DNA of 64,000 nt, from contig NZ_WMID02000012.1 of NCBI RefSeq assembly GCF_009711165.2, positions 1 through 64,000 on the forward strand. The letters are read 5' to 3'. The translations under genes were made by a program, and so were the position numbers. This DNA is from Flavobacterium sp. MC2016-06 (GTDB lineage Bacteria; Bacteroidota; Bacteroidia; Flavobacteriales; Flavobacteriaceae). The notes under the pieces were generated by a model. It was not told the DNA's origin and did no database searches. It saw nothing but the letters and a program-made list of their open reading frames with translations. Below, piece after piece: positions 44,886-53,140 of the stretch (position 1 is its first letter; each line of letters opens with the position of its first letter).

Positions 44886-44900
44886 GAGATTTGTTTGTTT

Positions 44901-44992
44901 GCCACGAATTACACAAATTTCCACGAATTTTTTAATTTGAAAAATCGATAAAAGCTAAAATATAATTTGTGAAAATTAGTGTAATTCGTGGC
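44901..44992. repeat. REP-like palindrome, family A (GCCACGAATTACAC)
   Basis: Perfect 14-bp arms (GCCACGAATTACAC, 44901-44914; GTGTAATTCGTGGC, 44979-44992) enclose further imperfect pairing. A lone half copy (GTAATTCGTGGC) lies at about 45038-45049. Related elements are at 52338-52420 and 63870-63970. Confidence 0.9.
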
Positions 44993-45114
44993 AAAAAACT
45001 TTTCACTAAGTAAAAGCAGAATTGCTAGAAATAACTGTAATTCGTGGCAGAAAACTTCGTTCAAAATATTAAGCCACAAAAAAAAGAAGTAAATTCGTCT
45101 TATAATTTATTTGA

Positions 45115-51072: not shown

Positions 51073-52317
51073 TTAGCCAATCAACTGTGTAAACAAATCA
51101 TGTTTATCATTTAAATATTGAAATTCAAAACCATTTTGAGTCATATTCATTTTAATGGCAAGAATATCTTTTTTGTTTTTTAATTCTAAACCAACTACAA
51201 CAGAACCAACTTCGCGGCTGTTTTTCTTCGCAAATTGAAAATAAGTAATGTCATCATCAGGACCTAAAATATTATTTACAAATTCTTTTAAAGCTCCAGG
51301 ACGTTGCGGAAACTGAATCATAAAATAATGCATTAATCCTTCATAAAGTAAAGAACGCTCTTTTATTTCGGCCGTTCTTTCAATATCATTATTGCTTCCG
51401 CTCACAATACAGACAACAGTTTTACCTTTTATTTTATCTTTATAAAAATCTAAAGCAGCAATCGTCAAAGCGCCAGCAGGTTCTACAACCATGGCTTCTT
51501 CATTGTATAATCTCAAAATAGTCGTGCAGACTTTTCCTTCGGGAACCAGAACTACATCTTCTAGATTTTCTTTACAGATCTCAAAAGTCATATCACCAAC
51601 TTGTTTTACGGCCGCACCGTCTACAAATTTATCAATGGTTTTTAATGCTGTATTTTTATTCTCTTGAATAGAAGTTTTCATCGATGGAGCACCTTTAGGT
51701 TCTACACCAATAATTTTAGTATGCGGACTTAAATGCTTAAAAACTTCAGATAAACCAGAAGCCAATCCGCCTCCGCCGATGGGAACAAAAACATAATCGA
51801 TAGGTTCTTTGTAAGTGTCTAAAATCTCTAAACCAACAGTTCCTTGGCCTGCCATAACTTTTATATCATCAAAGGGATGAATAAAAATTTTATGGTTTTT
51901 TATGGCATCTGCAGTTGCTGAGGCATAAGCATCATCAAAAGTATCACCTGTAAGTACAATTTCAACAAACGATTTTCCAAACAATTGTACCTGTTTTACT
52001 TTTTGCTTCGGAGTAGTTTTTGGCATGTAGATTTTGCCTTTTATATGCAGCAGATTACAAGAATACGCAACGCCTTGCGCATGATTTCCAGCACTGGCAC
52101 AAACAATTCCTGTAGCTTTTTCATTTTCAGTTAACGAAGAAATTTTGTTATAAGCGCCTCTAATTTTATACGACCGGACAATTTGTAAATCTTCTCTTTT
52201 TAATAAAATAGTCGATTTAAATTCGTCTGAAAGATTTAAATTTTGAGTCAGTGGAGTAGCAGCAACTACATCTCCAAGCTGCATTTTGGCGGCAAGTACT
52301 TCGTTAAATAAATTCAT
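51073..52317 (-). CDS. ilvA: Threonine dehydratase (threonine deaminase)
   Basis: The protein is 414 residues from the ATG at 52317. The pyridoxal lysine is Lys51 in SYKIRGAYNK, and the glycine-rich PLP loop is GGGGLASG. A C-terminal ACT-like regulatory domain (about 335-414) should bind isoleucine. It makes 2-oxobutanoate, the first step to isoleucine. The frame stays open to 52437, but that extension is translated from a palindromic repeat and has no family similarity, so the ATG at 52317 is chosen. The gene is preceded by an Ile-rich leader frame and a terminator, an attenuator. Other ilv genes are not in the window. Confidence 0.95.
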   Translation of the reverse strand: MNLFNEVLAAKMQLGDVVAATPLTQNLNLSDEFKSTILLKREDLQIVRSYKIRGAYNKISSLTENEKATGIVCASAGNHAQGVAYSCNLLHIKGKIYMPKTTPKQKVKQVQLFGKSFVEIVLTGDTFDDAYASATADAIKNHKIFIHPFDDIKVMAGQGTVGLEILDTYKEPIDYVFVPIGGGGLASGLSEVFKHLSPHTKIIGVEPKGAPSMKTSIQENKNTALKTIDKFVDGAAVKQVGDMTFEICKENLEDVVLVPEGKVCTTILRLYNEEAMVVEPAGALTIAALDFYKDKIKGKTVVCIVSGSNNDIERTAEIKERSLLYEGLMHYFMIQFPQRPGALKEFVNNILGPDDDITYFQFAKKNSREVGSVVVGLELKNKKDILAIKMNMTQNGFEFQYLNDKHDLFTQLIG

Positions 52318-52337: not shown

Positions 52338-52420
52338 GCCACGAATTACACCAATTTTCACGAATTGATTTTCTTCCATAAATGATAAAGAAATTAGTGA
52401 AAATTTGTGCAATTCGTGGC
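52338..52420. repeat. REP-like palindrome, family A, in the ilvA leader
   Basis: GCCACGAATTACACC and GGTGCAATTCGTGGC-type arms (52338-52352 and 52406-52420) flank a 53-base centre. It lies between the attenuator terminator and the ilvA start codon, so it is transcribed when ilvA is on and would form a hairpin in the mRNA. Confidence 0.9.
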
Positions 52421-52442
52421 AGTTTTAAATTATTCATTAAAT

Positions 52443-52468
52443 AAAAAAACCTCCCGATGTGGGAGGTT
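52443..52468 (-). terminator. Attenuator terminator before ilvA
   Basis: On the minus strand AACCTCCC pairs with GGGAGGTT around the loop ACATC, followed by a run of T. A short upstream piece (GAGGT, in GGCGAGGTG just after the leader stop codon) is complementary to ACCTC in the left arm and could form a competing antiterminator. Confidence 0.85.
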
Positions 52469-52510
52469 TATAAATTGTATTTGTTTACTTATTTATACAA
52501 CACCTCGCCA

Positions 52511-52573
52511 TTATTGCTCGATTGCAATACTGTTAATAATAGCGATAATAATAATGTTATTTAAATTCGTCAT
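52511..52573 (-). CDS. Isoleucine-rich leader peptide of ilvA
   Basis: A 20-codon frame starts with ATG at 52573 and stops with TAA at 52511. Eight residues are isoleucine: four in a row at positions 7-10, then 12, 13, 16 and 18. It lies about 12 bases after the start site expected from the TACATTTG promoter and about 40 bases before the terminator hairpin. Ribosome stalling at the Ile codons when charged tRNA-Ile is scarce would be expected to prevent formation of the terminator, switching on ilvA. No Leu/Val run is present, so isoleucine alone is sensed. The peptide itself is probably not functional. Confidence 0.8.
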   Translation of the reverse strand: MTNLNNIIIIAIINSIAIEQ

Positions 52574-52591
52574 TTTTTCTTGTTTGAAAAA

Positions 52592-52599
52592 CAAATGTA
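52592..52599 (-). promoter_or_regulatory. Promoter -7 element of the ilvA leader
   Basis: On the minus strand TACATTTG fits TAnnTTTG. It lies just after the stop codon of the DUF4136 gene, and its transcript would begin about 12 bases before the leader ATG. The expected -33 TTG is not clear. Confidence 0.6.
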
Positions 52600-52603
52600 T
52601 TAA

Positions 52604-53140
52604 TTATTTTTTTACTGGCGGATATTGCGCTAAAATTTTAGTTACAAACTCATTAACTTTTTCGTCTTTTTTATCCACGTTTTTAGTTAAGTTTCCAATA
52701 CCTTCACCTTGCCAGATCATTTCTTTCTTTTTAGCATCGATCAAATCGATGTATAAAGTTCCTTCTGTAGAAGTAGAAACAGTAGTTTGTCCGCCGTACA
52801 TCATGTAAGGATTCCAACCCCAGCCCCAGCCGTAACCCCAGCCAGCACTAAATTGATTTACGTTTACTTGTTCTCTTGATTTTGTAAAAATGTTTACTAA
52901 TACATCTGGGTTTTCACTTTTTGTAAAACCTTTAGCCTGCATTTGCTCGTCTATAGCGCGCAGAATACGTCTTTTATCCAAATCAGAAATTTCTACCTTA
53001 TCAATTCCGGGCTTAAAAAAAGCATAAGTCTTATAAGGCGTAAAATCTACGGTTTTATCGTAGTCAGAATAAACACTAACGGTACTGCACGAAGTTAGTA
53101 TCAAAAGCAAAAAAATCGGAACTAATTTGAATGTTTTCAT
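52604..53140 (-). CDS. DUF4136 lipoprotein
   Basis: The 178-residue protein has a lipoprotein signal (LTSC, Cys18) and a DUF4136 domain (about 20-175; VDFTPYKTYAFF, then a glycine/tryptophan-rich loop GWGYGWGWGWNP). It is probably anchored in the outer membrane; the function of the family is unknown. It ends just upstream of the ilvA leader promoter on the same strand, and no terminator is visible between them. Confidence 0.9.
   Translation of the reverse strand: MKTFKLVPIFLLLILTSCSTVSVYSDYDKTVDFTPYKTYAFFKPGIDKVEISDLDKRRILRAIDEQMQAKGFTKSENPDVLVNIFTKSREQVNVNQFSAGWGYGWGWGWNPYMMYGGQTTVSTSTEGTLYIDLIDAKKKEMIWQGEGIGNLTKNVDKKDEKVNEFVTKILAQYPPVKK

Follow-up and report, generated by a model that had tools for sequence, protein, structure and literature searches.

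The ilvA gene of Flavobacterium sp. MC2016-06 is preceded by what appears, with a probability of about nine in ten, to be a conserved ribosome-mediated transcription attenuator that senses the supply of charged isoleucyl-tRNA and is specific for isoleucine by those sequence criteria that lent themselves to testing. The short leader frame, its codon bias, the alternative structures that its RNA can form, their geometry and their conservation are apparent from the sequence and its comparison with related loci.

Layout and predicted working of the ilvA leader

The window, that is, the whole 64,000-nucleotide stretch of DNA analysed, carries on its minus strand the combination that marks an attenuator: an Ile-rich short leader directly after a promoter, and an intrinsic terminator before a biosynthetic gene (Table 1). 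These elements had been pointed out in an earlier note, and a direct reading of the minus strand agrees with its coordinates and counts to the base. The promoter it proposed is found as TACATTTG, which fits the sigma-A -7 box of F. psychrophilum, TAnnTTTG (PMC9723704); the T, A and TTTG of this element are invariant in 77 aligned loci, and its last base is separated from the leader start codon by 18 nt. No conserved -33 element is seen upstream of the aligned ilvA leaders. The A-rich block before TACATTTG is in part the end of the upstream gene, and hence its conservation is no evidence for a promoter. This upstream gene lies on the same strand and codes for a DUF4136 protein; four bases separate the end of its stop codon, at 52604, from the -7 box. 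The leader starts with ATG, ends with TAA and has eight Ile codons among its 20, codons 7-10 being all Ile, exactly as had been counted. On the 3' side, the TAA is followed by TGGC, then by GAGGTGTTGTAT and then by the terminator hairpin. The GAGG of region 2 (52506-52503) is separated from the stop codon by 4 nt, and the GAGGT after the stop (52506-52502) does have its complement in the ACCTC of the terminator stem (52467-52463). The terminator with its T run, the palindromic repeat and the downstream ilvA likewise stand where they had been placed.

Table 1. Elements of the ilvA leader and its surroundings, in window positions
Feature	Position	Strand	Basis or remark
-7 element TACATTTG, sigma-A type promoter	52592..52599	minus	sequence; pattern TAnnTTTG
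Leader peptide frame MTNLNNIIIIAIINSIAIEQ and stop codon	52511..52573	minus	sequence, conservation
Region 1, Ile codons pairing with region 2	52536..52560	minus	MFE folds
Region 2, leader end, stop codon and GAGGTGTTG	52497..52514	minus	sequence, folds
Antiterminator 2:3	52463..52506	minus	GAGGU/ACCUC and UUGUAU/AUACAA; folding
Intrinsic terminator 3:4	52443..52469	minus	9-bp stem AAACCTCCC, loop ACATC, GGGAGGTTT, T run
Dispersed palindromic repeat between terminator and ilvA	~52338..52420	minus	outside the switch
ilvA, threonine ammonia-lyase, 414 aa, with C-terminal regulatory domain	51073..52317	minus	profile matches

The product of the downstream gene matches the IlvA profiles NF006390 (622.9 bits; cut-off 421) and TIGR02079 (609.1 bits; cut-off 440.55) and contains the domains PF00291 and PF00585, the latter being the C-terminal regulatory domain. 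Its frame is also open upstream through the repeat as far as an ATG at 52437, from which IlvA may extend by 40 residues at its N-terminus. The repeat has 112 matches in the genome of this strain, both strands counted, and a further copy in the window at 44895-44998. Among 79 sequences measured, the gap between terminator and ilvA is only 18-29 nt in eight, and the palindrome pattern is matched in 49.

From this arrangement we infer the start site, the translation of the leader, the stalling, the read-through and the dependence of the latter on isoleucine. Transcription would begin just after TACATTTG, and a ribosome would start on the leader at once. When isoleucyl-tRNA is plentiful, this ribosome would reach the stop codon and cover the GAGG of region 2, leaving regions 3 and 4 to form the terminator, and ilvA would not be transcribed. 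When isoleucyl-tRNA is scarce, it would stall at any of the Ile codons and keep region 2 free to pair with region 3 once the latter is made, and the RNA polymerase would continue into ilvA. If the leader were not translated at all, the 1:2 hairpin would hide region 2 and the terminator would form.

Alternative structures and their conservation

We searched the 64 kb window, on both strands, for short frames in which any one amino acid is abundant and which a terminator-like hairpin follows. The ilvA leader is the sole Ile-rich case, and six shuffled strands yielded none; the two other frames returned, one Leu-rich and one Lys-rich, look spurious. The RNA of 52435-52580 folds with -33.7 kcal/mol against a mean of -19.0 kcal/mol for 200 dinucleotide shuffles, all of which are less stable (z -4.47), and its MFE fold combines a 1:2 hairpin, which buries GAGGTGTT in the Ile codons, with the terminator. 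If region 4 is omitted, region 2 pairs with region 3 through GAGGU/ACCUC and UUGUAU/AUACAA; the MFE of this antiterminator (52460-52514) is -11.9 kcal/mol, which 3 of 200 shuffles equal. By these folding predictions, the RNA is able to adopt each of the mutually exclusive 1:2, 2:3 and 3:4 structures known from classic attenuators.

For comparison, the upstream region was read in 80 ilvA loci from genomes titled Flavobacterium and a few titled Flavobacteriaceae bacterium or [Flexibacter]. Leader and terminator are present in 78 of these. One exception, L036, is cut off by a contig end within the terminator; in the other, L014, ilvA has been relocated behind another gene of 491 residues, judged by eye to be serine dehydratase-like, and has neither element. 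At L031, the leader lies further upstream, past several copies of the repeat. An alignment, A1, was built from 77 rows, namely the window and 76 loci; it leaves out L014, L036, L031, with its leader at the edge of the stretch, and L046, whose stem ACCTCCC escaped the pattern. The earlier note had called for such an alignment and had set against an attenuator the pattern of a leader lost with the terminator kept. The Ile codons are retained in 78 of the 80 loci, and the adverse pattern is as a rule absent, the genome G289 being an exception.

Within the alignment, the frame has 19 codons in 50 leaders, 18 in 26 and 20 in one, and each of the 77 has six to nine Ile codons. The Ile codons of the related leaders are mostly ATT (471) or ATC (116), with ATA used 4 times. 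The third codon position is the most variable in both of the larger sets: the entropies at positions 1, 2 and 3 are 0.074, 0.224 and 0.333 for the 19-codon leaders (50) and 0.184, 0.377 and 0.444 for the 18-codon leaders (26). At codons with an Ile consensus, the variant cells are synonymous in 24 cases versus seven others in the former set, and in six versus six in the latter. The Ile positions are held, and several other positions of the leader vary.

Folding of the 77 leaders recovers the 1:2 hairpin and the terminator in every case, with GAGGT paired into the leader frame throughout, and the GAGG:CCUC antiterminator, suggested earlier as a possibility, in 74 when region 4 is absent; the remaining three (L020, L043 and L069) use some other pairing. 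Stop codon and GAGG are 4 nt apart in 74 leaders, 3 nt in two and 5 nt in one. Other spacings vary in the same 77: from 42 to 48 between the beginning of the stop codon and the terminator stem, and from 17 to 22 between TTTG and ATG. With GAGG only 4 nt past the stop codon, a terminating ribosome should cover it. Judged by the size of a ribosome footprint, GAGG would be covered by a ribosome at the stop but left exposed by one that has stalled at any of the Ile codons.

As counted by pairs, covariation support for the helices is weak. In the antiterminator, 94.3% of the cells pair and two pairs have changed on both sides (6 cells), and the covariation score is reached by 6 of 500 shuffles. In the model of 1:2 plus terminator, 94.6% pair and four pairs have changed on both sides (4 cells); four such pairs arise in 39 of 500 shuffles, and the covariation score is reached in 437 of them. 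A second 1:2 model has 91.0% pairing, and its score is reached by 492 of 500 shuffles. We therefore rejected covariation as a proof of structure, the score of the 1:2 models being no higher than that of shuffles. The weakness arises because close relatives are too alike and because one of the paired arms is itself coding. Swapping region 3 between leaders also changed the pairing energy little, the mean native and swapped values being -9.38 and -8.99 kcal/mol for ilvA leaders, -7.93 and -6.57 for those of ilvD, -7.98 and -6.84 for those of ilvN2 (an acetolactate synthase small-subunit-like gene), and -6.78 and -6.87 for those of ilvE. Shuffling the spacer is a clearer test of the 2:3 fold than pair counting or swapping: the native fold is more stable than 95 or more of the 100 shuffles for 82 of 86 ilvA leaders, 9 of 13 ilvD leaders, 8 of 9 ilvN2 leaders, the single ilvB leader and none of three ilvE leaders, two further ilvE leaders having been dropped as the piece used held no terminator.

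Leader composition and competing explanations

Across the genus, the amino acid content of the leaders differs by the gene that follows. The 86 ilvA leaders have 43.5% Ile and 0.6% Val, the 13 ilvD leaders 23.1% and 18.5%, the five ilvE leaders 33.6% and 12.4%, and the nine ilvN2 leaders 47.6% and 1.4%; single loci were assigned to these classes by inspecting the start of the downstream protein by eye, one each of ilvA, ilvD and ilvN2 being checked. Threonine dehydratase serves isoleucine only, and IlvD and IlvE serve valine too; hence at ilvA, ilvD and ilvE the codons track the products. The ilvN2 leaders do not fit this simple rule, being Ile-only though an acetolactate synthase small subunit would serve valine too. 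Since all classes but ilvA were detected by a single model built from Ile-rich leaders, their Ile content is biased upwards.

These compositions bear on what the leader would sense. A translated leader might control read-through in response to general translation or growth rate, given that any condition slowing the leader ribosome would act, but the class-specific Ile and Val content and the constancy of the Ile positions amid several variable ones make such a signal very improbable. We consider it more improbable still that the terminator serves the upstream DUF4136 gene, that the Ile-rich frame is the by-product of an AT-rich palindrome and that the ilvA promoter lies further down. The region is indeed AT-rich, the codons double as one arm of the 1:2 hairpin, and in G289 a terminator directly follows the DUF4136 gene without a leader. 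Such a by-product would, however, leave unexplained why promoter motif, frame, start, stop and the distance from stop to GAGG are all conserved, why variation is highest at the third codon position (0.07, 0.22 and 0.33 in the 50 leaders) and why Val appears in the leaders of ilvD and ilvE, which code for enzymes that serve valine too. Least probable of all is an action in trans of the terminated leader RNA or of its peptide, as a small RNA or small protein: an RNA of ~140 nt, as predicted from the sequence, would arise when isoleucine is plentiful, but the conserved features are explained by action in cis, and no Rfam family matches the region at its gathering score.

That Rfam search found neither a T-box nor any other riboswitch at gathering score in the leader region, and a reading as a T-box or known riboswitch was rejected on this ground. 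The only matches at gathering score in the window are a tRNA and a Flavo-1 RNA (RF01705; 11215-11294, 77.6 bits), both outside the leader region. Phe_leader (RF01859, 33.7 bits) and Thr_leader (RF00506, 27.8 bits) match on the right strand and span leader and terminator; these scores lie below the gathering threshold of 55, and the leader does not belong to either as a sequence family. Most of the sub-threshold matches are surely due to chance; these two among them lend weak support to an attenuator.

The genome of the strain has a second unit, with the leader MQISIIITSSVIVNVIITSASGMV, before ilvD-ilvB-ilvN-ilvC (G000:C1:482093-482220); no ilvA is among the genes seen there. The covariance model R1 matches this leader with an E of 3e-4, which suggests that the ilvA and ilvD units share an ancestor, though convergence could also account for the features they have in common. 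R1 matches this genome at a third place (C6:21708, E 4.8e-4), where a repeat and a terminator-like hairpin stand with no Ile-rich leader; this match was dismissed as chance. Model-free scans for leader-terminator pairs, with a threshold on Ile, Val and Leu, were run on two sets: of 30 loci, 7 gave candidates before ilvD (one of them doubtful), against 0 of 30 in the reverse-strand control, and of another 40 stretches, chosen for mixed purposes, 12 gave candidates, against 2 of 40 in the control. The candidates include loci outside the class of the window but in the same phylum (L256, L259, L279, L289, L290 and L294). Most of the scanned loci gave no candidate, one reason being that other genes precede ilvD in its operon. 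Separately, at L183 (G365:C279) a short frame, MNLNVCNISKTMQEKSCGSLVA, and a terminator precede an O-acetylhomoserine sulfhydrylase-like gene, a 230-residue piece of which matches TIGR01326 with 316 bits; this frame is possibly another type of leader, or chance.

Gene order, serial units and known attenuators

R1 has matches in 88 of 249 genomes of the genus. An ilvA ortholog occurs in 54 of 120 genus genomes at least 95% complete, and 46 of these orthologs are at least 78% identical to that of the window; an R1 match lies just upstream of 42 of the 46, the two lists having been matched by hand. In G353, G301 and G228, ilvN2 stands between the R1 match and ilvA, and a gap of about 600-700 nt suggests the same for G254, G346 and G347. 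In G344 and G258, ilvA follows the end of an ilvC-like gene (by eye) and has no R1 match just upstream. In G250, the same place as L014, no leader was found before ilvA, and in G289 the terminator stays with the leader gone. Thus, a leader lies upstream of 42 of the 44 stand-alone ilvA orthologs in the genus sample. The other eight orthologs are at most 69% identical, and their context was read in five: ilvA is the last gene of an ilv operon with a leader at the operon head in G207, G209 and G354, and it has ilvE, ilvD, ilvB, ilvN and ilvC upstream, with candidate leaders before ilvE, in G210 and G264. In G291, a long distance separates ilvA from the ilvD leader. Outside the genus but within the family (125 genomes matched), ilvC is just upstream of ilvA in all 28 loci (L085-L112), and the 600 nt before ilvA in these hold one candidate frame, in L104, which by eye is not leader-like. 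This comparison of gene orders indicates that the ilvA leader goes with an ilvA standing alone. At L303 (in G289) and L165 (in G296), a terminator follows the DUF4136 gene, its end judged by eye, and the Ile leader is gone; the contig of L165 ends before any ilvA. Both are perhaps decayed attenuators.

The ilvA of the window has one unit only. Some related loci have units in series, which is less expected than a single attenuator. Two leader-terminator units with Ile-rich leaders stand in a row at nine of ten ilvN2 or ilvB loci (L146, L148, L150, L151, L163, L168, L170, L181 and L182; the exception is L149). They precede an ilvB-like gene at L181 and an acetolactate synthase small-subunit-like gene at the other eight. 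Before ilvE, two serial units occur at L272, at L283 (the first being read as L177) and, with weaker terminators, at L273, and three at L304, where units 2 and 3 are near-identical copies; L282 was grouped with L304 in this observation. Such a series could work as a steeper gate of the AND type. The branched-chain attenuator units of Flavobacterium may even be movable modules, an idea to which we give somewhat less than an even chance: in leaving an ilv(E)DBNCA operon, ilvA would have gained a unit tuned through its codons to isoleucine alone, ilvD and ilvE would have kept units with Ile and Val, and ilvN2 would have come to be guarded by two serial Ile units. If operated by ribosomes, these units would demonstrate that ribosome and RNA polymerase are closely coupled in Bacteroidota.

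In enterobacteria, ribosome-mediated attenuators control trp, his, thr, pheA, ilvGMEDA, ilvBN and leu. The ilvA unit resembles them in a leader rich in the regulating amino acid, in the 1:2, 2:3 and 3:4 structures, in the intrinsic terminator and in the biosynthetic gene downstream; it differs in phylum, in sequence and in its Bacteroidota promoter. The leader of E. coli ilvGMEDA has Ile, Val and Leu codons, whereas the Flavobacterium ilvA stands alone behind a leader with hardly any Val. For F. psychrophilum, transcriptome and structure evidence is reported to give strong clues to attenuation by leader peptides before amino-acid biosynthesis operons (PMC9723704), a case alike in genus and in position before such operons; unlike here, the attenuation passage of that paper names no gene, and its main text contains neither 'ilvA' nor 'isoleucine'. 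According to the same paper, initiation of translation in this group does not depend on Shine-Dalgarno pairing. A passage of PMC7366714 speaks of short leader frames in Bacteroides thetaiotaomicron. Hence, the mechanism of attenuation is not new to the phylum, and the earlier comment on how few descriptions of attenuators there are from Bacteroidota is fair, though, given the clues in PMC9723704, not absolute. The gene ilvA, an Ile-only leader and the link to a stand-alone ilvA are absent from the passages concerned in both papers. The serial loci, as distinct from the single unit at the window's ilvA, resemble the tandem attenuators described for Salmonella mgtCBR (PMC3641672) in having two short reading frames in one leader and attenuation-like control; mgtCBR, unlike the ilv loci, is not an amino-acid biosynthesis operon. 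A narrow phrase search of the literature for tandem attenuators gave no amino-acid biosynthesis case among the matches listed.

In a group whose promoters are unusual, the ilvA leader offers a compact example of amino-acid attenuation that is conserved and easy to test. An attenuation switch works only with a ribosome closely following the RNA polymerase, and hence this one would be a natural assay of transcription-translation coupling in Bacteroidota. The repertoire of leaders, with only Ile at ilvA and Ile plus Val at ilvD and ilvE, likewise constitutes a natural experiment in which the codons track the product of the enzyme.
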